Shown in pieces: positions 1,882 through 38,143 of a DNA stretch of 64,000 bases; the first letter of the stretch is position 1, and each line of letters begins with the position of its first letter. Under the pieces are notes generated by a model. The model was not told the origin of the DNA, ran no database searches, and worked only from the letters and a program-made list of their open reading frames with translations. The translations under genes and the position numbers were made by a program. The DNA lies in NCBI GenBank assembly GCA_944338165.1, contig CALVLN010000001.1, forward strand, positions 186,001 through 250,000. Reading direction: 5' to 3'. This DNA comes from an uncultured Clostridia bacterium. Its GTDB lineage: Bacteria > Bacillota > Clostridia > Christensenellales > Borkfalkiaceae.

Positions 1882-2715
1882 TTAATTTTCTTCATCTTCC
1901 CCGTAAACGGCGGTGAACGGCGTGAGCACGCCCCCCTTCCGCCAGCCCGGCACGGAATCGAGATTGACGTTGTGCATGCTGCGGAAGATGTTTTTTCCCG
2001 CATCGGGATTGACGCGTTCGAGCGAAGCGATGAGCGCCTTCATCTCGCGGCGCTTGCTCTCCTCTTCCTTTGAGGCGACGCGTTCGGTAAAGCGGCAGGC
2101 GCAGTTTAAAAAGCGCAGCCCGTTGTATGCCGCCCAGGAACGGATATCCGCCTCCTTGACCGCGTACATGGGGCGGATGAGCTGCATGCCGGGATGGGAC
2201 GTGGAGCGGAGTTTCGGCATCATCGTTTTGATCTCCGCGCCGTAGAGCATACTTAAAAGCGTGGTCTCGATGACGTCGTCGAAATGGTGGCCGAGGGCGA
2301 TCTTGTTGCAGCCGAGCGAAGCGGCGTATTCGTACAAATGCCCCCGCCGCATGCGCGCGCAGAGATAGCAGGGCGAACCCTCCGTCACCGACGTGACCAC
2401 CTCGAAGATATTGCTCCGGAACACGCGCACGGGCACGCCGAGGAGCGCCGCGTTTTCCTCGATGAGGGCGCGGTTCACCGGGGCGTAACCGGGATCCATG
2501 ACGATAAACTCCAAGCCGAACCGGAATTCACCGTGTTTTTCCAGCTCCTGCATGCACTTGGCGAGCAAAAAAGAATCTTTCCCGCCGGAGATACAGACGG
2601 CGATCTTATCTTCGGGGGAGATCAACCCGTATTGTTTGACAGCCTTTACAAAGGGGCACCAGATCTGTTTGCGGAACTTTTTGATGATGCTGCGCTCGAT
2701 CTCGGCCGTGCTCAT
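1882..2715 (-). CDS. TtcA-family PP-loop ATPase (tRNA 2-thiolation type)
   Basis: 277 residues. It carries the PP-loop SGGKDS (residues about 48-53) that adenylates the target base, two CxxC pairs (CYLCARM about residue 121 and CACR about 212), and the GHHFDDVIET motif of the TtcA/TtuA group, which thiolate tRNA bases and often use an Fe-S cluster. The start ATG at 2715 overlaps the stop of the thioredoxin-reductase-like gene by four bases (ATGA), so translation is coupled; a longer reading frame upstream has no support. Being paired with a disulfide reductase fits a sulfur- and redox-dependent enzyme. Whether it makes s2C32 or another thiolated base cannot be told. Confidence 0.82.
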   Translation of the reverse strand: MSTAEIERSIIKKFRKQIWCPFVKAVKQYGLISPEDKIAVCISGGKDSFLLAKCMQELEKHGEFRFGLEFIVMDPGYAPVNRALIEENAALLGVPVRVFRSNIFEVVTSVTEGSPCYLCARMRRGHLYEYAASLGCNKIALGHHFDDVIETTLLSMLYGAEIKTMMPKLRSTSHPGMQLIRPMYAVKEADIRSWAAYNGLRFLNCACRFTERVASKEEESKRREMKALIASLERVNPDAGKNIFRSMHNVNLDSVPGWRKGGVLTPFTAVYGEDEEN

Positions 2716-3587
2716 GTTCGCGCCCCTCTCTTCTGCGCATTCAGGTAGGAAAGCACGGAATAGGCGGCAACGCATCCCTCCCCCGCCGCTTTGACAAACT
2801 GATAAGGCCTGCCCGTCACGTCGCCCGCGGCAAACAGCCCGGGAAGGTTTGTAGACAGATCGCGCGAAACGCGGACATGCCCCCCGTCCGTCTCCAGGCC
2901 GCCGACCAGAGACGCGGGCGGAGCCGACTCGCGCAAAAAGAACACGCCGTCCGCCGAGACGGCGGCCCCGCTCTGCAGAATCAGCCGCCTGACGCGCAGA
3001 TCGCCTTCGACCGCACGGGGCATGTCCGAACTGACGCGGATATTGTTTGCCGCAAAGGGCGGCAGCGCCGCCTTGCAATAGACGGTGACTTCGGCCGCAA
3101 AGCCGGCAAGATACTCCGCCTCGCGGGAGAACTCCGCCGAGGAAAGCACGGCGGCCACTTTTTTGCCGCGGTAGAGCGCGCCGTCACAGACGGCGCAGTA
3201 GCTTACGCCCCTGCCCAAAAACGCCGCCTCGCCCGCGATGCTCCCGCTTGCCGAGACGCCCGTGCAGAGGATGACGGTACGGGAAAAAAACTGCCTCTCC
3301 CCCGCGGTGACGAGGTATCCCCCTTCGACCGCATACACGCCGTCCGCCCTGCCCGCAGTAAAAGGGACTGCTTCTTCAACGGCCTGCCGCGAGAGCGCCG
3401 CCGCAAATTCGGCGCCGTCCCCCGTAAAGGCGGGATAATTGCGCACGTACTCCGACCGCGCAAGCTTCCCGCCGAAGGCGTTATCCCCCAGCCAAAGCGC
3501 ATTCAGGCGCAAACTCTTCAGCGTGAGCGCGGCGGAATACCCCGCGATCCCGCCGCCGATGACGGCGGCATCAAACTGTTGTTCCAT
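2712..3587 (-). CDS. Thioredoxin-reductase-like FAD/NAD(P)-disulfide oxidoreductase
   Basis: 291 residues. The FAD-binding GGGIAGYSAA lies near the N-terminus; the redox-active CAVCDG (about residue 136) is in the position typical of TrxB; the second FAD motif GDVTGRPYQFVKAAGEG is near the C-terminus. The pyridine-nucleotide motif is divergent (AAVLSSAEFSREAE in place of GxGxSAxE), so the electron donor may not be NADPH; some clostridial TrxB-like proteins use ferredoxin or F420. The start at 3587 has AAGGAG upstream (3594-3600). It is translationally coupled to the TtcA-like gene and has its own promoter. Confidence 0.85.
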   Translation of the reverse strand: MEQQFDAAVIGGGIAGYSAALTLKSLRLNALWLGDNAFGGKLARSEYVRNYPAFTGDGAEFAAALSRQAVEEAVPFTAGRADGVYAVEGGYLVTAGERQFFSRTVILCTGVSASGSIAGEAAFLGRGVSYCAVCDGALYRGKKVAAVLSSAEFSREAEYLAGFAAEVTVYCKAALPPFAANNIRVSSDMPRAVEGDLRVRRLILQSGAAVSADGVFFLRESAPPASLVGGLETDGGHVRVSRDLSTNLPGLFAAGDVTGRPYQFVKAAGEGCVAAYSVLSYLNAQKRGART

Positions 3588-3614
3588 AAACGCATTCTCC
3601 TTGTTGACGGGGCA

Positions 3615-3644
3615 ATTATACCATCCCCGCCCGCGCTTTGTCAA
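3615..3644 (-). promoter_or_regulatory. Sigma-A promoter for the thioredoxin-reductase-like gene
   Basis: -35 TTGACA (3639-3644), 18-bp spacer, -10 TATAAT (3615-3620), minus strand. The GC-rich spacer GCGGGCGGGGATGG is almost the same as that of the promoter at 12086-12114. Confidence 0.85.
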
Positions 3645-3723
3645 GAAAACGGCGGCGGACGCGGACGGACGGAAAAAAGCGCGGTTTTTTGCAAAAACAA
3701 GCGCCTATCTTTCCTTAATATAA

Positions 3724-3752
3724 TTGACATTCTGTCCCGGGAAGGCTATAAT
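3724..3752 (+). promoter_or_regulatory. Consensus sigma-A promoter of the Gx transporter-rnf operon
   Basis: TTGACA (3724-3729), 17-bp spacer, TATAAT (3747-3752): a perfect match. Only eight bases separate the -10 box from the ATG at 3761, so transcription should start one to four bases before the start codon, giving an essentially leaderless mRNA. Confidence 0.9.
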
Positions 3753-3760
3753 TGTGACGT

Positions 3761-4330
3761 ATGAAGAAAAGAACCGCATTCAACGCGAAAAAAATTTCCG
3801 TGCTCGCATTGATGACGGCGCTGGGACTTATCATGTTCATGATCGAAAGTATGTTTCCGCCCCTGTTTTTCCCGGGGGCGAAAATGGGGCTTTCCAACAT
3901 TTTTTCCCTGCTCACGCTCATCCTTTACGGGCTGCCGGAGGCGCTCCTCGTCGCAGCGGCGCGCACCGTGCTCGGGAGTCTTTTTGCGGGGAACGCGTCT
4001 CTTCTCTTGTACAGCCTGACCGCCGGGATCGTCAGCGTCTGCGTATCCCGCCTGCTGCTGTTCGCCTTTCCGAAGATCAGCATCCTCTGCGTGAGCATCG
4101 TCTCTGCCGTCGTGCACAACTGCGTGCAGCTGTTTGTGTATTTTCTGCAGACGCAGACGCCGCTCATCTTCAGCGAACTGCCATACCTCGTCCTTTTGGG
4201 CGTCCTTGCGGGCGTCATCGTGGGCATTACGGTCATCGTCACGGTCAAGGCGATCCCCCTCTCCGTCTTTGAGCGGGTGGCGGGGGAAAAAGAAAAAAGT
4301 CAAACTAATCAAATGGAGGAGTCAAATTGA
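3761..4330 (+). CDS. Gx transporter family membrane protein (Hpre_diP_synt_I family)
   Basis: 189 residues with five or six hydrophobic segments after a short basic N-terminus (MKKRTAFNAKKIS). ALMTALGLIMFMIES and LPEALLVAAARTVLGSLFAGN fit the Gx transporter/heptaprenyl-diphosphate-synthase-component-I family, a group of ECF-S-like membrane proteins of unknown substrate often found beside rnf or FMN-binding genes. It is the first gene of the rnf operon and overlaps rnfC by four bases. There is no Shine-Dalgarno sequence: the start codon sits almost at the expected transcription start. A role in supplying a cofactor precursor to Rnf is possible but inferred only from position. Confidence 0.8.
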   Translation: MKKRTAFNAKKISVLALMTALGLIMFMIESMFPPLFFPGAKMGLSNIFSLLTLILYGLPEALLVAAARTVLGSLFAGNASLLLYSLTAGIVSVCVSRLLLFAFPKISILCVSIVSAVVHNCVQLFVYFLQTQTPLIFSELPYLVLLGVLAGVIVGITVIVTVKAIPLSVFERVAGEKEKSQTNQMEESN

Positions 4331-5619
4331 AAGCAGCAAACGGTAGACTGTTTTTCCGCGGAGTGCATCTGCGGGACAAAAAGTCGCTTTCCTCCGCCGC
4401 AGCCGCAGAGGCGCTCGCCCCCGTGCGGGAAGTGGCCATCCCGCTCTCCCAGCACATCGGCAAACCCGCGCTTCCAGCCGTCGAGGTCGGCGAGAAGGTC
4501 AAGCGCGGGCAGCTGATCGGCAAAGCGGACGGATACGTGAGCGCGAACGTTCATGCGAGCGTCGCGGGCACGGTGAAGGCGATCGAGGCGCGGTCCGACG
4601 GGCGCGGCGGCAACGTCACGTGCATCGTCATCGAACGGGCGGAGGAAGACGAGACGGAGTTTCTGCCCCCGCTCAACGATCCTTCGGCGGAAGCCGTCCT
4701 GCAGCGCGTGCAGGACGCGGGCATCGTCGGCATGGGCGGCGCGGGGTTCCCCACGCACGTCAAGCTCAAGCCCGCCAGCCCCGTGGATACGCTCATCCTC
4801 AACGGTGCGGAATGTGAGCCCTATCTCACCTGCGACCACCGCATCATGCTGGAGGAGACGGACAAGATCGTCCGCGGCGCCAAGTATATCGCCAAGGCAA
4901 TCGGCGTCACGAACATCGTCATCGGCATCGAAAAGAACAAGCCCGACGCCATCGCCGCCTTTGAAAGCACCGATCTTAAGGTGGTGGCGCTGAAAAAGCA
5001 ATACCCGATGGGTTCGGAAAAGCACCTCATCTACGTGTGTACGGGCAGAAAGGTGCGCGTGGGCAAGCTCCCTGCGGATGCGGGCGTCATCGTGCAGAAC
5101 GTCGCCACGGCGCTTGCCGTATGCAGCGCGGTCGAGGAGGGAAAACCGCTCATCGAGCGCGTGGTCACCGTCTCGGGCGCAGGCATTGAGACGCCGAAGA
5201 ACCTGATCTGCCCCGTCGGCGCGCCCATGGCGGCGCTCGCAGAGGCGTGCGGCGGCATCAAGGACGGCGCGGTCAAATTTGTGGCCGGCGGCCCCATGAC
5301 GGGTGCGGCGCTCACAGGGCTTGCGGGTCCCGTGACCAAAACCTCCTCCGGGCTGCTCTTTCTGACGGCAGAAGAAACGAATGCGGACGAACCCACCAAC
5401 TGCATCAACTGCGGCAAGTGCGCGGACGTATGCCCCATGCACCTCATGCCCATGCAGACGGCGTTCTTTACGGCGGCAAAGGAATACGAGAATGCGGAAA
5501 AGTACGGCGGCGTTTTAAGCTGCATCGAATGCGGCGCCTGCTCGTACATCTGCCCCGCCCGTCGTCCGCTGGCGCAGATGATCAAGACGGCGAAAGCCGA
5601 ACTCCGCAAGAAGAAATGA
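4327..5619 (+). CDS. rnfC: Rnf complex subunit RnfC
   Basis: 430 residues. RnfC is the peripheral NADH-binding subunit of ferredoxin:NAD+ oxidoreductase (Rnf). The sequence has the N-terminal RnfC barrel-sandwich region (FFRGVHL, YVSANVHASVAGTVKAIE), the flavin/NADH motif GMGGAGFPTHVKL (about residues 136-148) and ILNGAECEPYLTCD, and two C-terminal 4Fe-4S motifs, CINCGKCADVCP (about 359) and CIECGACSYICP (about 399). The start is TTG at 4327, chosen because GGAGGA ends seven bases upstream; the TTG overlaps the TGA of the preceding gene, so translation is coupled. Confidence 0.95.
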   Translation: MKAANGRLFFRGVHLRDKKSLSSAAAAEALAPVREVAIPLSQHIGKPALPAVEVGEKVKRGQLIGKADGYVSANVHASVAGTVKAIEARSDGRGGNVTCIVIERAEEDETEFLPPLNDPSAEAVLQRVQDAGIVGMGGAGFPTHVKLKPASPVDTLILNGAECEPYLTCDHRIMLEETDKIVRGAKYIAKAIGVTNIVIGIEKNKPDAIAAFESTDLKVVALKKQYPMGSEKHLIYVCTGRKVRVGKLPADAGVIVQNVATALAVCSAVEEGKPLIERVVTVSGAGIETPKNLICPVGAPMAALAEACGGIKDGAVKFVAGGPMTGAALTGLAGPVTKTSSGLLFLTAEETNADEPTNCINCGKCADVCPMHLMPMQTAFFTAAKEYENAEKYGGVLSCIECGACSYICPARRPLAQMIKTAKAELRKKK

Positions 5620-5635
5620 GGAGGAAAAGAATCGT

Positions 5636-6649
5636 ATGAATCAAACGTTGATCCTCTCGACCGCGCCTCACGTCAAGACGGCGAGAACCACCAAAACGAT
5701 CATGCTCGACGTGCTGATCGCCCTTCTTCCCGCGACGGTGGCCGGCATCGTCTTTTTCGGCTGGCAGGCGCTCGTCATGATCTTCCTGTCGCTCGTCTCG
5801 GCGGCGCTGACCGAGTTTGTCTACTACATCGTCCAGAACAAGATCTGGCAGGATCCCAAGGGCGTCTGTGTGAAGTTCCTGAAACAGTTCGACTTCTCGT
5901 CGCTCGTCACGGGGCTTCTGCTTGCCCTCGTCATCCCCTCCAACATCGAGGGATGGTACATGCCCATCCTCGGATCCGTGTTTGCCGTCGCCGTCGTCAA
6001 GATGCTCTTCGGCGGCACGGGCAAGAACGTGGTCAACCCCGCCCTTGCGGGCAGAGTTTTCCTGTTTATCTCCTTTGCGCTGATGATGCAATACCCCGCC
6101 CCCAACTTCGGCGCCCTGCTGGATACGACCGGCGACGTCATGACGGGCGCGACCTCGCTCACGAGCGGGCTTGCGGGGGAAGGCACGCTCTCCGCGCTCG
6201 ACTTGTTCCTGGGTACGGGCGTTGCGGGCTGCATCGGCGAGACGTGCAAGCTCGCCCTGCTGGCTGGCGGCGTATACCTGTGCGTACGCGGCGTCATCAA
6301 GTGGTATCTGCCCCTCATCTATATCCTCGTCACCGGGCTGTTCGCAGTCTGCCTCGAAGGATTTGACTTCGGGGCCTTCCTGCCCTCCGTGTTCGGCGGC
6401 GGCCTCATCCTCGGCGCCATCTTTATGGCGACGGATTACACCACCACCCCCAAGAGCACGCTCGGCAACGTCATCTACTTTATCCTGCTCGGGCTTCTGA
6501 CGGCGGGGCTGAGAAAGGCGACGGGCATCGAAGTGGTATCCTTCTGCATCCTGCTCATGAACTTCCTCGTGTTCCTCATCGACAAAGCCATCCCCGCGCG
6601 CCCCTTCGGTTCCGTGTGGAAAAAGGCAGACAAAAAGGAGGGCAAATAA
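5636..6649 (+). CDS. rnfD: Rnf complex membrane subunit RnfD
   Basis: 337 residues, polytopic, about nine hydrophobic segments. RnfD is a membrane subunit with a covalently bound FMN; the attachment motif DVMTGATSLT (about residues 167-176) is intact, the second Thr of TGAT being the usual FMN ester site. The TGA of rnfC is followed by GGAGG 10-14 bases before this ATG. With RnfG it relays electrons across the membrane, coupled to Na+ or H+ export. Confidence 0.95.
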   Translation: MNQTLILSTAPHVKTARTTKTIMLDVLIALLPATVAGIVFFGWQALVMIFLSLVSAALTEFVYYIVQNKIWQDPKGVCVKFLKQFDFSSLVTGLLLALVIPSNIEGWYMPILGSVFAVAVVKMLFGGTGKNVVNPALAGRVFLFISFALMMQYPAPNFGALLDTTGDVMTGATSLTSGLAGEGTLSALDLFLGTGVAGCIGETCKLALLAGGVYLCVRGVIKWYLPLIYILVTGLFAVCLEGFDFGAFLPSVFGGGLILGAIFMATDYTTTPKSTLGNVIYFILLGLLTAGLRKATGIEVVSFCILLMNFLVFLIDKAIPARPFGSVWKKADKKEGK

Positions 6650-8074
6650 ATGACTGTTAAGCAATTTTTCAAGAGCAACGCATTCAAGAGTCTTGCCGTC
6701 CTCCTCGCCATCGTCATCATTGCGGGCGGCCTGCTCGCCATCTTCAACGATCTGCTGTTCGTTTCCGATGAAGAGCGCTTCAACCGCACCATCGAGAAGA
6801 TCTACGGCGGCTCGGCGACCGTGGAAGAGACGCTGACGATCACCGACGAAAACGGTACGTTTGACAAAGGCGCCGTCAGCGCTGCGTACAAGATGAGCGA
6901 CGGCAACTACCTCATCCATTCGAGCGGCAAGGGCGGCTACGGCGGCGACGTGTATCTGTGGGTCGTCGTGATCGCGGAAAACGGCAAATTCGGCGGCATT
7001 GAAAAGGTGCTGCTGGATACGAGCGACGGCGAGACGCTGCTCGGCAACTTCCGCGACAGCTTCTACGAAAACTTCACCAAACACAACGACGAGCTCGTCG
7101 AAGGCAAGTACTTCGGGACTTCCGGAAGCGACGTCATCAACAACGTCGTCACGGGGACGACCCTCTCGTCCAACGCCATGTGCAACGCCGTCAATACGGC
7201 GATCGACTTCTTCAAGAGCGCCGTGCTCGGCGAAGAAGTGGTAAGCTATACCTACCTCTACGAGAAGTACGTGGACATGACGCAGACGACCATCGAGCGC
7301 GACTTTGCGGCAAACAGCGTAACGCTCCGCATCGTCATGCAGGCAAACGGCATTGCACCTTCCATCGCCTTTGACGTCACCGTGAAAGACGGCGCCATCA
7401 CCGCCTTTGAGGCGACGAAACCCTTCGTACAGCAGTACGACGAGACCAAGATCGACGAATCCCTCCGCAACGGCACCTACTTTGTCGGCAAGACGGCGGA
7501 AGAGATCGCCGCGGCGCTGCCCGACGGCGAAACGCTGGATCCTGCCAAGCTGGAAGGTCTCGGCCTTGCCACGGGCGCGAGCCGCTCGAGCGAATCTTTC
7601 TTCCGCGCGGCGGCGTTTGCAACGGCAAACTTCGAGGCGTTCTTTGCACCGGAAAACCTGACTTATGCCTCCTATGTGGACTTCGAGCAGTCGACGTTCA
7701 CCTGGAACTATACGGAAGGCAACGAAGTGAAGATGCACATCGTCATGCAGGCAAACGGCATTGCACCTTCCATCGCCTTTGACGTCACCGTGAAAGACGG
7801 CGCCATCACCGCCTTTGAGGCGACGAAACCCTTCGTACAGCAGTACGACGAGACCAAGATCGACGAATCCCTCCGCAACGGCACCTACTTTGTCGGCAAG
7901 ACGCTGGAGGAGATCGCCGCGGCGCTGCCCGACGGCGAAACGCTGGATCCTGCCAAGCTGGGAGGCCTCGGCCTTGCCACGGGCGCGAGCCGCTCGAGCG
8001 AATCTTTCTTCCGCGCGGCGGCGTTTGCGCTCAGCAATTACACGTTCTATCTTACGGGAGGTGAACAGGCATGA
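6650..8074 (+). CDS. rnfG: Enlarged RnfG with three FMN-binding domains
   Basis: 474 residues; ordinary RnfG is about 180-220. One N-terminal anchor helix (about residues 15-35) is followed by a normal FMN_bind domain with attachment motif T168-G-T-T-L-S-S. Two extra domains follow, each beginning near IVMQANGIAPSIAFDV and each ending in TGASRSS (T308 and T444). In DNA these two are a tandem repeat of 290 bp (7331-7620 and 7739-8028, offset 408 bp) with only about five mismatches. In all three motifs the fourth position (T171, S311, S447), where ApbE attaches FMN, is a hydroxyl residue. The start abuts the rnfD stop, and the end overlaps rnfE (ATGA). The protein could carry up to three covalent FMNs outside the cytoplasmic membrane. 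Confidence 0.9.
   Translation: MTVKQFFKSNAFKSLAVLLAIVIIAGGLLAIFNDLLFVSDEERFNRTIEKIYGGSATVEETLTITDENGTFDKGAVSAAYKMSDGNYLIHSSGKGGYGGDVYLWVVVIAENGKFGGIEKVLLDTSDGETLLGNFRDSFYENFTKHNDELVEGKYFGTSGSDVINNVVTGTTLSSNAMCNAVNTAIDFFKSAVLGEEVVSYTYLYEKYVDMTQTTIERDFAANSVTLRIVMQANGIAPSIAFDVTVKDGAITAFEATKPFVQQYDETKIDESLRNGTYFVGKTAEEIAAALPDGETLDPAKLEGLGLATGASRSSESFFRAAAFATANFEAFFAPENLTYASYVDFEQSTFTWNYTEGNEVKMHIVMQANGIAPSIAFDVTVKDGAITAFEATKPFVQQYDETKIDESLRNGTYFVGKTLEEIAAALPDGETLDPAKLGGLGLATGASRSSESFFRAAAFALSNYTFYLTGGEQA
7331..8028 (+). repeat. Near-perfect intragenic tandem repeat in rnfG (2 x 290 bp, 408-bp period)
   Basis: Copies at 7331-7620 and 7739-8028 differ at about five positions (near 7496-7502 and 7552-7559 in copy 1). 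The 118-bp linkers after each copy are only loosely alike, so the identity stops sharply at the repeat edges. Confidence 0.95.
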
Positions 8075-8748
8075 ACAAGTATGTTAAGACCGCCGTTGAC
8101 GGCCTTATTACCAACAATGCGACCTTCAAGCTCGTCCTCGGGACGTGCGCCACGCTCGCGCTGACGACCTCGGCGATCAACGGCGTGGGCATGGGGCTTT
8201 CGGTGACCGCAGTGCTGCTTTTGAGCAACGTCGTCATCTCGCTCCTGCGCAAGGTCATCCCCAACACGGTGCGCATCCCCGCATTCATCGTCATCATCGC
8301 CACGATGGTCACAATCCTGCGCATGGCGCTCGATAAATTCCTGCCCGATCTGTACGACTCCATGGGCGTGTTCCTGCCCCTCATCGTCGTCAACTGCATC
8401 ATCCTCGGCAGGGCGGAGGCATTTGCGAGCAAACAGCCCGTCCTGGACAGCGCCATCGACGGCGTCGCCACCGGGCTCGGGTTCACCGCAGCGCTCACGA
8501 TCATGGGCGTCATCCGCGAACTTCTTGGCAGCGGCAGCTTCTTCGGCATCCAGCTGTGGGATTTCAAGATCGGGTTCTTTACCAGCTCCGCGGGCGCGTT
8601 CTTCGTCTACGGCATGTGCATCGCCCTCTTCACCCTCATCTCCAATCGGGTAGAGTATGCACACCGCGCAAGAAAGGCGCGCGAACTGCGCGTGCCCGCC
8701 GAAGGGCCGCTTGACGCGCCCGGGATCTCTGCGAAGGAGGAAGCATAA
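8071..8748 (+). CDS. rnfE: Rnf complex membrane subunit RnfE
   Basis: 225 residues with about six hydrophobic segments; RnfE/NqrD family. Recognised by NNATFKLVLGTCATLA near the N-terminus, FLPLIVVNCIILGRAEAFA (about 111-129) and GLGFTAALTIMGVIRELLG. The conserved Cys in LGTC and VNC are those that hold the membrane-embedded Fe-S cluster between RnfA and RnfE. The start overlaps the rnfG stop (ATGA). The C-terminal tail (about 190-225) is hydrophilic. Confidence 0.95.
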   Translation: MNKYVKTAVDGLITNNATFKLVLGTCATLALTTSAINGVGMGLSVTAVLLLSNVVISLLRKVIPNTVRIPAFIVIIATMVTILRMALDKFLPDLYDSMGVFLPLIVVNCIILGRAEAFASKQPVLDSAIDGVATGLGFTAALTIMGVIRELLGSGSFFGIQLWDFKIGFFTSSAGAFFVYGMCIALFTLISNRVEYAHRARKARELRVPAEGPLDAPGISAKEEA

Positions 8749-9360
8749 ATGTTAGGCACCATCATCACCATCATCGTCGCTGCGCTCTTCTCGCAGAACT
8801 TCATCCTCGTCAAATTCCTCGGCATCTGCCCCTTCCTCGGCGTGTCGAAAAAGACGAGCAGCTCCGTCTCCATGGGCATCGCCGTGACGCTCGTCATGGT
8901 TTTGGCGACGCTCGTCACCTACCCGCTGTATGAGTACATCCTCGTACCGCTCAAGATCGAATACCTGGAGATCATCTTCTTCATCTTCATCATCGCCGCA
9001 CTCGTGCAGATGCTGGAAAAGATCATCGAGAAGCTCTCCCCTTCCCTCTATCAGACGATGGGCATCTACCTGCCGCTCATCACGACCAATTGCGCCATCC
9101 TCGGCGTGGCGGAGCTCGTCATCGGCAGCGGGTTCTATGCGGACATCGGGCTTGCCGCGGCGGCGGACATGAACCTCTGGTTCGCGCTGCTGTATGCGCT
9201 GTTCGCCGGGCTCGGCTTCACGCTCGCCATGGTGCTCATGGGCGGCATGCGCGAACGCATCGAGAAGCTCCCCATCGCCAAATGCATGAAGGGCTTCCCC
9301 ATCACCATGGTGGCGGCGTGCTTCATGGCGATGGCGTTCTACGTCTTCACGCTGATTTAA
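8749..9360 (+). CDS. rnfA: Rnf complex membrane subunit RnfA
   Basis: 203 residues, about six hydrophobic helices; RnfA/NqrE family, inverted-topology partner of RnfE. Signatures are NFILVKFLGICPFLGVSKK near the N-terminus and YLPLITTNCAILGVAE in the middle, each with the Cys that ligates the shared Fe-S cluster. The start follows the rnfE stop directly, with AAGGAGG about six bases upstream inside rnfE. Confidence 0.95.
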   Translation: MLGTIITIIVAALFSQNFILVKFLGICPFLGVSKKTSSSVSMGIAVTLVMVLATLVTYPLYEYILVPLKIEYLEIIFFIFIIAALVQMLEKIIEKLSPSLYQTMGIYLPLITTNCAILGVAELVIGSGFYADIGLAAAADMNLWFALLYALFAGLGFTLAMVLMGGMRERIEKLPIAKCMKGFPITMVAACFMAMAFYVFTLI

Positions 9361-9373
9361 CGGAGGTATTACG

Positions 9374-10192
9374 ATGAAATTCTTGCTTTTACAGCCCGTT
9401 CAGTGGGCGCAGGTCGGGATCGTCATCGGCATCTTTGCCGCCATCTCCGTCCTCCTCACCGTCTGTATCCTTCTCGTTGCCAAATTCTGCAAGACGAACG
9501 CCGACGAGAAGATGGAAAAGATCCTGGAAAATCTCGCCGGCGCCAATTGCGGCGGCTGCGGCTGCACCGGCTGTGCCGGCTTCGCTGCCAAGCTGTGCAA
9601 GGGCGAGGCGACCCTTGCCGACTGCCACGTCACGGGCGACGACAAGAAGGAAGAGATCGCCAAGATCCTCGGCGTCACCGTGGAGGCGAGCAAGCCTACG
9701 GTGAGCGTCTGCCGCTGCGCGGGCGGGAAAAACGCCGCGGACAAATTTGTGTATTCCGGTGCGCAGGACTGCGCGGAAGAGGCAAAGCTTGACGGCGGCG
9801 CCAAGGCATGCAAATACGGCTGCCTCGGCGACGGCAACTGCGAACGCGTCTGCCCCGAATCGGCGATCAGCCTTCCCGAAGGATGCGCCTGCGTCGATCC
9901 CGACCGCTGCACGTCCTGCGGGGCGTGCATCCGTGCCTGCCCCAAGGATCTGTTCATGCGCATCCCCGCCGACGCGAAGGTATACGTCGCCTGCGCCAAC
10001 CACGACCGCGGCAAGGCGGTCATGGACGTCTGTTCCGTCGGGTGCATCGCCTGCGGAAAATGCGCCAAGGTGTGCCCTTCGGGCGCGATCGCCATGGTGG
10101 ACAATCTGCCCGTCATCAATTACGACCTCTGCACCAAGTGCGGCAAGTGCGCGGAAGCGTGCCCCCGCCACACCATTCAGACGAGATATTAA
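9374..10192 (+). CDS. rnfB: Rnf complex ferredoxin-accepting subunit RnfB
   Basis: 272 residues. One N-terminal membrane anchor (about 12-38), the CGGCGCTGCAGFA cluster-binding domain (about 59-71), then several Cys groups: CKYGCLGDGNCERVCP, CTSCGACIRACP, CIACGKCAKVCP and CTKCGKCAEACP, i.e. about four 4Fe-4S sites after the first. RnfB takes electrons from reduced ferredoxin and passes them into the complex. It is the last gene of the rnf operon, preceded by GGAGG and followed closely by a strong terminator. Confidence 0.95.
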   Translation: MKFLLLQPVQWAQVGIVIGIFAAISVLLTVCILLVAKFCKTNADEKMEKILENLAGANCGGCGCTGCAGFAAKLCKGEATLADCHVTGDDKKEEIAKILGVTVEASKPTVSVCRCAGGKNAADKFVYSGAQDCAEEAKLDGGAKACKYGCLGDGNCERVCPESAISLPEGCACVDPDRCTSCGACIRACPKDLFMRIPADAKVYVACANHDRGKAVMDVCSVGCIACGKCAKVCPSGAIAMVDNLPVINYDLCTKCGKCAEACPRHTIQTRY

Positions 10193-10206
10193 AAAGGGCA
10201 ACCAAA

Positions 10207-10241
10207 AAGGCCCTGCCGCGTTTGCGGCAGGGCCTTTTTTT
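10207..10241 (+). terminator. Strong terminator of the rnf operon
   Basis: A 13-bp perfect stem (10207-10219 with 10224-10236), GTTT loop and seven U. The A-run on the left arm lets it also serve the convergent gene at 10254. Confidence 0.9.
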
Positions 10242-10253
10242 GTTGCAGTGGAA

Positions 10254-10553
10254 TCATACCATGTTGATGAGCTGCTGGTAGGTCCCGGGGAAGAAGAGGA
10301 AGATAACGATGAGCGCGACCAACAGGCAGAAGATCAAAAAGAAGATGAAGTTGCGCTTGCACATCGCCTCCAGCCCGACGACGCCGATGAGCAACAGACC
10401 GCCGTATTCCTTGATGATGGTGAGGATGTTCATCACCGTCGCATTGGTGATAAACTCAAAATTCGAGTTGATGATGAGCACCGCCCAGACCACGACAAGC
10501 AGGACCGCGAGGATCTCGCCGATGATGTCAAAGATGGGTTCGAGTTTTTTCAT
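10254..10553 (-). CDS. Small three-helix membrane protein, function unknown
   Basis: 99 residues: a short polar N-terminus, then hydrophobic segments at about 12-29, 52-60 and 69-88, and a polar tail. I do not recognise a family. GGAGG lies eight bases before the ATG, and it has its own consensus promoter. It converges on the rnf operon and shares its terminator. Confidence 0.75.
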   Translation of the reverse strand: MKKLEPIFDIIGEILAVLLVVVWAVLIINSNFEFITNATVMNILTIIKEYGGLLLIGVVGLEAMCKRNFIFFLIFCLLVALIVIFLFFPGTYQQLINMV

Positions 10554-10599
10554 GTGATACCTCCATGGATGTAATACGGAAATCTCCCGTACGCCCTAA

Positions 10600-10628
10600 A
10601 TTATAGCAAACGAGACATTGTTTGTCAA
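10600..10628 (-). promoter_or_regulatory. Consensus sigma-A promoter for the small membrane protein
   Basis: TTGACA (10623-10628), 17-bp spacer, TATAAT (10600-10605), minus strand; leader of about 40 bases. Confidence 0.88.
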
Positions 10629-10658
10629 CGGTATCGCAAAAATTGCGCGCAAACATTT

Positions 10659-12050
10659 TTACAGGCTGAACGCCTCCAATTCGCGGATGCGATGGTGATC
10701 GATGGCATAAATGAGATTGACGAGCTCGTCGTCGCCGAAAGAACTGTTGCGCCCTTCCTCGTATTCCGCGTCGATGCGTTCCTTCATTTTGACCACGAGC
10801 GGATCGCGTTTGTCCACCTTGTGCTCCTCGGGGAGCTTGTAATAGTCGTTGATCCAAAAGGCGATGCCGGCAAGGCCGCTCGTCTTATTGACGGATACGC
10901 GCGCGGGGCGGTTGAGGATGGCCGCCGTATCGAAGATGTTATAGATCTCCTCGTCCTTGAGCATGCCGTCGGCATGGATGCCGGCGCGCGTCGAGTTGAA
11001 CGCTCTGCCCACAAAAGGCGTTTTGGGCGGGATGTTATAGCCGATCTCCCGCTCGAAATAGTCGGCGATCTCGGTGATGGCGGTAAAATCCATGCCGTCC
11101 ATGCCGCCGCGGAGGGACGCGTATTCCATCGCCATCGCCTCGAGCGGACAATTGCCCGTGCGCTCGCCGATGCCGAGCAGCGAACAGTTGACGGCGGAAG
11201 CGCCGTACAGCCATGCCGTCGCCGCATTCGGGACGACTTTGTAAAAATCGTTGTGACCGTGCCATTCGAGCTGCGCGCTCGGCACGCCCGCATAGTGATG
11301 CAGCCCGTAGACGATGCCCTGTACGCTGCGCGGCAGCGACGCCCCGGGATAGGTCACGCCAAACCCCATCGTGTCGCACATGCGGATCTTGACGGGGATG
11401 CCGCTCTCGCGGGAAAGCGCCATGAGCTGCGTCGCAAACGGCACCACGAAGCCGTAAAAATCGGCGCGGGTGATGTCCTCGAAATGGCAGCGCGGCGTGA
11501 TGCCGTGGGAAAGCGCGCTCTTGACGATGCCGAGGTATTTGTCCAGCGCCTGACGGCGCGTCAGATGCATCTTTTTGAAGATATGGTAATCGGAACAGCT
11601 GACGAGGATGCCCGTCTCCCGGACGCCCGCCGCCTTAACGAGTTCAAAATCCCGCTCGTCGGCGCGGATCCACGTGGTGATCTCCGGAAATTTCAGCCCC
11701 GTATCCTGGCAGGCGTGCAGCGCTTCTTTGTCCTTGTTGGAATAGACGAAGAATTCCGACTGGCGGATGAGCCCCTTCTCGCCGCCGAGACGCGCCATCA
11801 GGCGGTACAGATCGACGATCTGCTGCACGGTAAAGGGCGACGTGGACTGCTGTCCGTCGCGGAAGGTCGTATCCGTGATCCAGATCTCGTCCGGCACGCA
11901 CATGGGCACGTGACGGTGGTTGAACGCCGTCTTGGGAATGCTCTTATAGTCGAACAGGTCGCGGAAAAGTTCCGGCTCCTGCACGTCCTGCAATTCGTAA
12001 TGGTAGATGACGTCCTCCAAGAGATTGGAATGTCCGTTGTAGTAGATCAT
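10659..12050 (-). CDS. Isopropylmalate/homocitrate-synthase family enzyme, probable Re-citrate synthase
   Basis: 463 residues. DRE-TIM metallolyase fold: the metal and base motif is TDTTFRDGQQ (about residue 61), with HFEDITRADFYGF, RMCDTMGFGV and EWHGHNDF (HxH metal site) following. The version WHGHNDFYKV with LGIGERTGNCPLEAM and the GLIRQSEFFVYS motif match, from memory, the Re-face citrate synthases of Clostridium kluyveri and relatives, which are usually mis-annotated as isopropylmalate or homocitrate synthase. There is no leucine-type allosteric domain at the C-terminus. The start at 12050 was chosen for AGGAGG eight bases upstream; an ATG seven codons earlier has none. It would condense acetyl-CoA with oxaloacetate. 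Citramalate or homocitrate synthesis is the alternative. Confidence 0.72.
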   Translation of the reverse strand: MIYYNGHSNLLEDVIYHYELQDVQEPELFRDLFDYKSIPKTAFNHRHVPMCVPDEIWITDTTFRDGQQSTSPFTVQQIVDLYRLMARLGGEKGLIRQSEFFVYSNKDKEALHACQDTGLKFPEITTWIRADERDFELVKAAGVRETGILVSCSDYHIFKKMHLTRRQALDKYLGIVKSALSHGITPRCHFEDITRADFYGFVVPFATQLMALSRESGIPVKIRMCDTMGFGVTYPGASLPRSVQGIVYGLHHYAGVPSAQLEWHGHNDFYKVVPNAATAWLYGASAVNCSLLGIGERTGNCPLEAMAMEYASLRGGMDGMDFTAITEIADYFEREIGYNIPPKTPFVGRAFNSTRAGIHADGMLKDEEIYNIFDTAAILNRPARVSVNKTSGLAGIAFWINDYYKLPEEHKVDKRDPLVVKMKERIDAEYEEGRNSSFGDDELVNLIYAIDHHRIRELEAFSL

Positions 12051-33784: not shown

Positions 33785-33813
33785 TTGACATTTTTCCTTT
33801 GCCGTCATATAAT
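33785..33813 (+). promoter_or_regulatory. Consensus promoter abutting the EamA start codon
   Basis: TTGACA (33785-33790), 17-bp spacer, TATAAT (33808-33813); seven bases then ATG at 33821, so the mRNA should begin at or one base before the start codon. Confidence 0.9.
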
Positions 33814-33820
33814 GGGATAT

Positions 33821-34780
33821 ATGCAGACCAACGGAAAAAAAGGGCTCGGGATCCTCATGATCTTAGGGGCGGCGCTTTGCTTTGCGCTGATGAACCTCTT
33901 CGTGCGGCTGGCGGGAGATCTGCCCGTCATGCAGAAGGTGTTCTTCCGCAACCTCATCGCCGCCTTTATCGCCGCGGCGGCGCTGCTGCGCGAAAAGGAA
34001 AAATTCCGCATCCATACGCGATGCCTTCCCTTTCTCCTGCTGCGCGCGGGGCTCGGGTTTTTGGGCGTCGTGCTCAACTTCTATGCCATCGACCGCCTCA
34101 ACATTTCCGACGCGTCCATCTTAAACAAACTTTCCCCCTTTTTCGCCATCCTTTTCTCCCTGCTGCTCCTGAAAGAACGGCCGACGGGAAGGGATCTCTT
34201 CTTTGTCCTGCTCGCTTTTTCCGGCGCCGTCTTCGTCATCAACCCCTCCTTCAGCTGGGAAGTCCTCCCCGCCGTTGCGGGGTTCTTCAGCGGCGCATGC
34301 GCCGGCTTTGCCTACACCTGCGTGCGCATGCTGGGCATCCGCGGGGAACGCGCAAACATGACGGTCTTTTTCTTTTCCGCCTTTTCCACGCTCGCATCCC
34401 TCCCCTTCGTCATCGCCTTTTATCAGCCGATGGACGGCTGGCAGCTCACTTCGCTGCTGCTTGCGGGCGTCTCCGCCGCGGGCGGGCAATTCTGCATCAC
34501 CGCCGCCTACCGCATGGCGCCCGCCAAGGAGATCGCCGTCTTTGATTACGCGCAGGTCCCCTTTGCCGCCATCCTGGGCTTTTTCTTCCTCGATCAGATC
34601 CCCGGCTGGAACAGCTACGTCGGCTATGCGATCATCATCGGCGCCGCCGTGCTCAAATGGCTGTTTCAGCGCCGAAGCGAGAAGAAAGCGCCGCGGCGGC
34701 AAGAAGACGGCGCAAACATGCCTGAAGCGTCCGCCCCTCCCGAACCAACAGAAGAAACAAAAAAAGACCCCTCGCCATAA
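33821..34780 (+). CDS. EamA/DMT-family membrane exporter
   Basis: 319 residues with ten hydrophobic helices in two EamA repeats (about 8-145 and 155-290), family hallmarks ALCFALMNLFVRLA, FFRNLIAAFIAAAALL, YAIDRLNISDASILNKLSP and AAYRMAPAKEIAVFDYAQVPFAAILG. It is a drug/metabolite transporter of unknown substrate. The C-terminal 40 residues are hydrophilic and rich in Glu, Pro and Lys. No Shine-Dalgarno sequence: an ATG at 33812 lies inside the -10 box, so 33821 is the first usable start and lies at the predicted transcription start. Confidence 0.88.
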   Translation: MQTNGKKGLGILMILGAALCFALMNLFVRLAGDLPVMQKVFFRNLIAAFIAAAALLREKEKFRIHTRCLPFLLLRAGLGFLGVVLNFYAIDRLNISDASILNKLSPFFAILFSLLLLKERPTGRDLFFVLLAFSGAVFVINPSFSWEVLPAVAGFFSGACAGFAYTCVRMLGIRGERANMTVFFFSAFSTLASLPFVIAFYQPMDGWQLTSLLLAGVSAAGGQFCITAAYRMAPAKEIAVFDYAQVPFAAILGFFFLDQIPGWNSYVGYAIIIGAAVLKWLFQRRSEKKAPRRQEDGANMPEASAPPEPTEETKKDPSP

Positions 34781-36359: not shown

Positions 36360-38090
36360 TTATGCATCGAGATCGACAAATGAATACTTGGTCAGGTCAA
36401 ACAGCCCTTTATCGGAAAGCTTGAGATCGGGAATGACGAGCAGGGACAAAAAGACGAGCGTCATGAAGGGCTCGTAACAAGCCTTCACGCCGCAGGCTCG
36501 GGCATGGGCGGCGATCTCCCGCGTCCGTTCGATGACTTCATCCGCGGGGGCAGAGCTCATCAGCCCCGCGATGTCAAGCGGAAACACCTCTTCTTTCCCG
36601 TTCGCGACGAGCGCCATGCCGCCGCCCGAACGCTGCAGCAGCGCAACGACGCGGGCCATGTCTGCGTTGTCGTCGCCAAGCACGACGATATTATGGCTGT
36701 CGTGCGCGACGGTGATGCCGAGCGCGCCGCCGCGGAATCCGTACCCTTTGACGACGCCGAGCCCGACGTTGCCCGTGGCAAAATGCCGTTCCACGACGGC
36801 AAGCTTGCACAGATCGCTTCCCTTGACACAGATATCGCCGCCGCTGACGGCAACGGGAACGATCTCTTCATGCGTCGTCAGGCTGTAAGGCTCGACGGCA
36901 ATGGCGCGCAATTTCCCCGTTCTGCCCGCAATGCGGAAGCTTTCCGCCGTGACGGGCGCAATGTGAACGGTGCTCCGGACCGCATCGGGAAAATAGCGCT
37001 GCGTGTGGGAAAAACACGGGTCCCCCGCTTCGGCGACGAGTTCGCCCCGTTTATAGACGCGGCGAACGCGGAAGGACTGCAGATCGTCGACGAGGACGAT
37101 GTCCGCGTCATACCCGGGCGCAAGCGCGCCCTTCCCTTTGATGCCGTAGCATTCGGCGACGTTGCTCGTCGCCATACAGACGGCTTCCGCCGCGGGGACG
37201 CCGCAGGATACGGCGAGCCGCAGCGCGTCGTCCAGGTGTCCCTTATCGCGCAGATCGGCGGCGTTTTTATCGTCCGAACAAAGCAAGAAACGCCGGAAAT
37301 TAAAGCGCGTGACCGCCTTGCAATTGCGTTCGAGGTTGCGCGCGGAGGAGGCGTTCCGCAGCTGCACGTACATGCCCCGCGCCACGCGCTCGCTGCATTC
37401 CTCCGCGCTCAGCGGCTCGTGGTCGGTCAGGATGCCGGCGCAGCTGTAGGCGTTGAGCGCGTCTCCGCTCACCCCGGGGGCGTGGCCGTCGACGGGCTTC
37501 CCCGCATCGCGGGCGGCGCGGATCTTCCGCAATGCGTCCTCTTCCCCCGCGATGACCGAGGGGAACGCCATCATCTCACCCAAGCCGAAAAAGAGCGGGC
37601 GGGCGATCTCCCGCGCGGTCTCCTCGCCGCCGAGCGAAGCGCCGCTCGTTTCAAACGGCGTTGCCGGCACGCAGGAAGGCAGCTGTAAATATACGTCAAG
37701 GGGGACGTTCCCGCCCTCCGTTTTCAATCGCGCGAACGCCTCCGCGAGGTATTCCGCCCCTGCGATGCCGCAGACGTTGGTAAGCTCGTGCGGGTCGGCG
37801 ACGATGCCCGTCGTGCCGCGCGGCACCGCCAGCGCCGCGAACGCTTCGGGGGAAAGCATGCTGCTTTCCACGTGGATGTGCGAGTCGATGAGTCCGGGGA
37901 TGGCGAACAGTCCCTCGCAGTCGATTTCCCGTTCCCCGTGATAGCCGCTGCCGATGCCGCAGATCTTTCCGTCCAGAACGGCGATCTCCCCCGGTTGCGT
38001 CTCCCCCGTAAAGACGTTAAAAATTTGCACGCCGCGCAGCACGAGGTCGCACGGCTTGCGCTTCATGGCGCAGTCGATGTATGCTTTCAT
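36360..38090 (-). CDS. ade: Adenine deaminase
   Basis: 576 residues. Amidohydrolase-superfamily AdeC type: IPGLIDSHIHVESSML carries the first metal-binding HxH, followed by VPRGTTGIVADPHELTNV, PVDGHAPGVSGDALNAY, HEPLS and CSDDKNAADL. It converts adenine to hypoxanthine and ammonia, feeding salvage. It is the first gene of ade-GNAT/RdgB-phosphoesterase, all three dealing with nucleotides or phosphoesters. The start at 38090 has no Shine-Dalgarno sequence; a -10 box lies six bases upstream, so the message should begin at the start codon itself. Confidence 0.93.
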   Translation of the reverse strand: MKAYIDCAMKRKPCDLVLRGVQIFNVFTGETQPGEIAVLDGKICGIGSGYHGEREIDCEGLFAIPGLIDSHIHVESSMLSPEAFAALAVPRGTTGIVADPHELTNVCGIAGAEYLAEAFARLKTEGGNVPLDVYLQLPSCVPATPFETSGASLGGEETAREIARPLFFGLGEMMAFPSVIAGEEDALRKIRAARDAGKPVDGHAPGVSGDALNAYSCAGILTDHEPLSAEECSERVARGMYVQLRNASSARNLERNCKAVTRFNFRRFLLCSDDKNAADLRDKGHLDDALRLAVSCGVPAAEAVCMATSNVAECYGIKGKGALAPGYDADIVLVDDLQSFRVRRVYKRGELVAEAGDPCFSHTQRYFPDAVRSTVHIAPVTAESFRIAGRTGKLRAIAVEPYSLTTHEEIVPVAVSGGDICVKGSDLCKLAVVERHFATGNVGLGVVKGYGFRGGALGITVAHDSHNIVVLGDDNADMARVVALLQRSGGGMALVANGKEEVFPLDIAGLMSSAPADEVIERTREIAAHARACGVKACYEPFMTLVFLSLLVIPDLKLSDKGLFDLTKYSFVDLDA

Positions 38091-38096
38091 ACTAAC

Positions 38097-38125
38097 AGTA
38101 TACCACAAAGCGGCCCCCTGCGCAA
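38097..38125 (-). promoter_or_regulatory. Promoter abutting the ade start codon
   Basis: TTGCGC (38120-38125), 17-bp spacer, TATACT (38097-38102), then six bases and ATG. The seventh base after the -10 box is the A of the ATG. Confidence 0.8.
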
Positions 38126-38143
38126 TCGTTTGCAGAGGACCGC
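38110..38143 (-). terminator. Possible terminator of the P-type ATPase gene, overlapping the ade promoter
   Basis: A hairpin of about 12 bp with one or two mismatches (38110-38121 region with 38131-38143) and only UUU after it on the minus strand; the -35 box of ade lies within it. Confidence 0.45.

Follow-up and report, generated by a model that had tools for sequence, protein, structure and literature searches.

The promoter at positions 3724–3752 of the window, the stretch of 64,000 nucleotides analyzed here, drives a leaderless or near-leaderless first cistron of the rnf operon, and the rnf cistrons behind it are translated from their own Shine-Dalgarno (SD) sites, a reading to which we assign a probability of roughly 0.87. 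In this reading the site is also one member of a conserved class of similar starts. The evidence comprises the position of the promoter, the absence of an SD, and the distance and frame of the start codon, which are kept among homologous loci.

Promoter and start site of the first cistron

The -35 box TTGACA (3724–3729) and the -10 box TATAAT (3747–3752), both on the + strand, match all 12 consensus positions and are separated by a 17-nt spacer, ttctgtcccgggaaggc. The -10 box ends 8 nt upstream of the ATG at 3761, the intervening bases being tgtgacgt, and no SD is found between the box and this ATG. A gggaagg stretch is located inside the promoter spacer and hence upstream of any mRNA made from this promoter. 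The perfect TTGACA-17-TATAAT pair and the missing SD are as described in the original prediction and can be read directly from the sequence. Its further claim, that transcription starts at the first ATG, holds only approximately. In the established sigma-70 geometry, the canonical +1 is the seventh base past the -10 box, which here is G3759, two bases before the AUG.

Counting by this geometry, the 5′ end of the transcript is predicted to fall within 3757–3761 on the + strand, and the predicted leader of the first cistron is 2 nt long for a +1 at G3759. An exactly leaderless geometry corresponds to 6 nt between the -10 box and the ATG, the distance kept by most members of the class described below; with 8 nt here and usually 7–9 nt in relatives, a leader of 1–4 nt is possible. 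We infer that the mRNA begins at the first-cistron AUG or about 2 bases ahead of it, and that this 5′-terminal AUG most likely recruits a 70S ribosome directly, together with initiator tRNA. In other systems, it is mainly 70S ribosomes that engage leaderless mRNAs, at an AUG located at or near the 5′ end (reviewed in PMC9031893).

An unrecognized promoter farther upstream would instead provide a leader of about 30 nt or more, leaving the TTGACA/TATAAT pair a minor role and requiring 30S subunits to start at 3761 independently of an SD. A second TATAAT at 3719–3724, overlapping the first base of the -35 box, could be part of such a promoter. However, it has no -35 box of its own, is absent from the promoter-scan list, and is missing in most homologues, whereas the ATG-proximal -10 box is kept in nearly all of them. 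Furthermore, the scan of the + strand listed no promoter-like site from 3300 to 10700 other than the 3724–3752 pair. We consider a longer leader of this kind very unlikely, and the promoter at 3724–3752 remains the preferred origin of the transcript.

The first cistron has no co-directional read-through leader, because the gene upstream of it is divergent. This gene encodes a TrxB-like oxidoreductase (2712–3587, - strand), and with its promoter at 3644–3615, a leader of at least about 20 nt, and the SD AAGGAGA, it forms an internal contrast to the first cistron within the shared intergenic region. In the genomes G018, G004, and G013 (loci L055, L058, and L061), TrxB-like homologues display TATACT-6-ATG. 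The gene is thus SD-led here and has the leaderless layout in relatives, and therefore the start mode can switch within the genus.

Conservation of the first-cistron start

The first cistron (3761–4330, + strand; 189 aa) encodes a membrane protein of family PF07456 (Hpre_diP_synt_I, Gx-transporter type; E 1.3e-32) and is not an Rnf subunit. We searched 103 genomes of the genus, found a match in 34, and used 29 clear-homologue loci; further homologues were taken from named uncultured Clostridia MAGs, and sequences identical to those of genus genomes were counted once. The share of genus genomes with a match indicates that the gene is patchy in the genus, as perhaps is the rnf operon too. The first gene adjoins rnfC in 37 of 38 loci. 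At L119, where the first-gene match is situated 33 bases from the contig end, rnfC was not found.

An in-frame ATG or GTG lies 6–10 nt past the -10 box in 32 of the 33 distinct first-gene loci (29 by script, with L002, L087, and L088 corrected by eye), 7 nt being the commonest distance. These 32 starts share the reading frame of the conserved region. Around this fixed point the loci vary: the spacer sequences have diverged, and between 8 and 15 codons separate the start from the first conserved residue. The one locus that departs from the pattern, L086/L103, starts at TTG behind a leader that contains the SD aaggagg, beneath a perfect consensus promoter.

The codon-usage gene caller placed the start of the first cistron at 3800 rather than at 3761, because the first codons are atypical. 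This choice would agree with a true start downstream, at GTG 3800 or ATG 3812, behind an ordinary leader of about 40–55 nt. However, neither 3800 nor 3812 is preceded by an SD, and an ATG or GTG close to the -10 box that stays in frame despite variable N-termini would be unexpected in untranslated sequence. We give such a downstream start still less credence than an upstream promoter, and regard the ATG at 3761 as the start of the first cistron.

A class of leaderless-type starts in the genome

We assembled a sample consisting of the window and twenty further 20-kb segments of this genome (464 kb in total), in which 395 genes were called from codon usage. Downstream of its 181 intergenic promoter-like sites, 11 ATGs that share the frame of a called gene occur at a distance of 6, compared with 0–2 at each of the other distances from 0 to 18, and none of the ATGs at distance 6 is out of frame. 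The in-frame peak at distance 6 also appears in seven relatives from the genus (8) and seven from the order (7).

The original prediction proposed that -10 boxes close to start codons be counted against shuffled controls. In the 464-kb sample, the promoter layout at exactly 6 nt precedes 16 of 363 genes versus 0.74 ± 0.83 in 100 dinucleotide shuffles, an excess beyond all 100 of them (shuffle maximum, 4). At distances of 6–8 nt there are 20 such genes versus a shuffle mean of 1.95, and at the control distances of 12–14 nt there are 7 versus 2.13. In the order sample, the count at exactly 6 nt is 8 versus 1.85 (shuffle maximum, 5), and the result for 6–8 nt is less clear (10 versus 5.1; shuffle maximum, 11). 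An SD-like motif is present before 1 of the 20 leaderless-type starts versus 232 of the 343 other genes, where the second figure counts genes with an SD at one or more candidate ATGs and is slightly favored by there being several candidates per gene. The class amounts to roughly 5% of the genes in this genome, a rough figure that depends on a simple caller and on motif thresholds. The 16S 3′-end sequence GGATCACCTCCTTTCT had no match in any of the 31 genomes searched, a zero so uniform that it is uninformative about the anti-SD.

The genome, 1.45 Mb at about 60% GC, contains 55 perfect TTGACA-16/18-TATAAT promoters and none of the reversed control pattern. That the -10 to ATG distance merely reflects chance or annotation in a genome so rich in consensus promoters, some of which are bound to fall near an ATG, is barely credible at this site and already refuted for the class as a whole, given that the 6-nt excess occurs in frame only, stands above every shuffle, and is kept gene by gene.

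Further members of the class

Two other genes of the window had been described as sharing the layout, and both sites are present. Ahead of the EamA transporter gene (33821–34780), a TTGACA-17-TATAAT-7-ATG layout spans 33785–33823 on the + strand, with TTGACA starting at 33785, TATAAT at 33808–33813, and the ATG at 33821. The adenine deaminase gene (36360–38090, - strand) is preceded by a TTGCGC-17-TATACT-6-ATG layout at 38088–38125 on the same strand, in which the -35 box (TTGCGC) is poor. A distance of 6–9 nt is found in 18 of 20 EamA transporter homologues and in 22 of 30 adenine deaminase homologues; the script used for these two genes set no limit on the -35 box, so a few of the matches may be weak. 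For polA, the layout is present in all 28 of 28 genomes read, at 6 nt in 27 and at 7 nt in one; 24 of these were read by script and four rows by eye, and in L123 the -10 box is cut by the contig end.

The adenine deaminase promoter is located inside a stem-loop followed by a T run (38097–38143, - strand) that resembles the intrinsic terminator of the upstream gene. This arrangement, in which the terminator, the promoter, and the leaderless ATG merge into one element, recurs in many homologues (for example L171, L177, and L156), and a terminator/promoter fusion is also seen in one other gene (L045). The evidence for a terminator-embedded promoter at adenine deaminase is suggestive. The broader proposal that leaderless promoters generally lie within the terminator hairpin of the upstream gene was rejected, the proportions being 4 of 23 and 2 of 21 for leaderless promoters versus 8 of 83 and 6 of 67 for leadered ones.

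The genes for polA, adenine deaminase, an EamA transporter, the first cistron of the rnf operon, and further members might constitute a dedicated conserved set of leaderless genes with 70S-based translation and joint regulation, a proposal we regard as speculative and rather unlikely. If it is true, translation of the leaderless set could rise or fall in concert, compared with the SD-led majority, in response to changes in ribosome state or initiator tRNA.

Distribution across genus, order, and phylum

To describe the reach of the class we counted perfect TTGACA-16/18-TATAAT promoters only, comparing those with an ATG at 6 nt with a 12-nt control. Five genus genomes yielded 29 at 6 nt versus 7 at 12 nt, and 116 other genomes of the order yielded 189 versus 71, whereas 148 other genomes of the phylum yielded 77 versus 88. 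The phylum count covers perfect promoters, and leaderless genes with weaker promoters may occur elsewhere in the phylum. The contrast between order and phylum has a Fisher p of 8e-8, with related genomes treated as independent. Under this strict definition the count in the present genome alone is small (3 versus 2), and the 6-nt excess is uneven between the families of the order. Taken from these genome comparisons, the putative class is conserved across this genus of uncultured gut Clostridia and enriched in its order. The statistics within this genome and the genus-wide conservation thus support the real leaderless class envisaged in the original prediction, its transcript 5′ ends being predicted ones.

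Leaderless genes as such are already known. Among 953 bacterial genomes, Zheng et al. 2011 (PMC3160421) predicted leaderless (TA-led) genes in 207, those in the Firmicutes being mainly in Lactobacillales and Mycoplasma, and the StartLink paper (PMC9581028) cites 21.6% of bacterial species as having leaderless genes. The TA-led genes of Zheng et al. (PMC3160421) and the first cistron described here both lack an SD and have a Pribnow box some 10 bp ahead of the start. Clostridia are not named in the searched text of that study; the present case concerns a GC-rich genus of Clostridia, with conservation gene by gene. Within clostridia, 15 leaderless genes have been mapped in C. difficile (PMC7438776), and leaderless transcripts account for about 2% in C. 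autoethanogenum (PMC6873888), 4% of TSS in C. phytofermentans (PMC5171806), and 2–3% in solventogenic clostridia (PMC9045289). The rarity of leaderless mRNAs in Bacillota, as stated in the original prediction, is consistent with these clostridial maps, although they were predicted in Lactobacillales and Mycoplasma (PMC3160421).

The clostridial maps (PMC7438776, PMC6873888, PMC5171806, PMC9045289) consist of measured 5′ ends, whereas those discussed here are predicted. In C. phytofermentans, leaderless genes generally retain a ribosome-binding site and another upstream TSS (PMC5171806); in contrast, the leaderless-type starts in our sample are almost without SDs, and their geometry is kept between species. 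In Mycobacterium and other Actinobacteria (PMC3898074, PMC4633059), the -10 box also lies directly ahead of the start and SD-led genes coexist. However, the fraction here is far smaller (about 5% of the sampled genes) and the -35 box is a strong TTGACA. In the open-licence papers searched we found no conserved leaderless class for this lineage.

This gut lineage is known from metagenomes only and lends itself to comparative study of why certain genes retain leaderless starts. Gains and losses of the start mode are visible within a single genus, as in the first gene of L086 and in the TrxB-like gene between species. The class also bears on annotation: start prediction based on codon usage or on SDs can misplace leaderless starts, as happened at the first cistron.

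Translation of the rnf genes

The operon has the order rnfCDGEAB, with all genes on one strand and a strong SD ahead of each. The SD of rnfC, GGAGGAG (4315–4321, + strand), is contained within the end of the first cistron, and the TTG start of rnfC (4327–5619, +; TIGR01945, E 6.3e-150) overlaps the first-cistron stop in the sequence TTGA. There follow, all on the + strand, rnfD (5636–6649; SD gaggagg), rnfG (6650–8074; SD aaggaggg; PF04205), rnfE (8071–8748; SD gggagg), rnfA (8749–9360; SD aaggagg), and rnfB (9374–10192; SD cggagg). An SD precedes rnfC in all 37 of the 37 homologous loci that reach this gene.

The original prediction went on to make translation of the rnf operon dependent on initiation by whole ribosomes. 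This is not supported: the leaderless cistron is the PF07456 gene, and rnfC, rnfD, rnfG, rnfE, rnfA, and rnfB have SDs. The leaderless layout in this operon is limited to the first gene and leaves the rnf genes unaffected. We propose that the six downstream cistrons would each be translated from their own SD sites; having these, the Rnf complex is translatable by the standard route. Coupling to translation of the leaderless cistron would concern rnfC at most, perhaps through its overlapping start.

RnfG is unusually long in this genome (474 aa) and matches RnfG models weakly. Its gene contains a 300-nt direct repeat (7319–7618 and 7727–8026, 97% identical), a duplicated stretch 3′ of the FMN_bind domain that accounts for the length of the protein.
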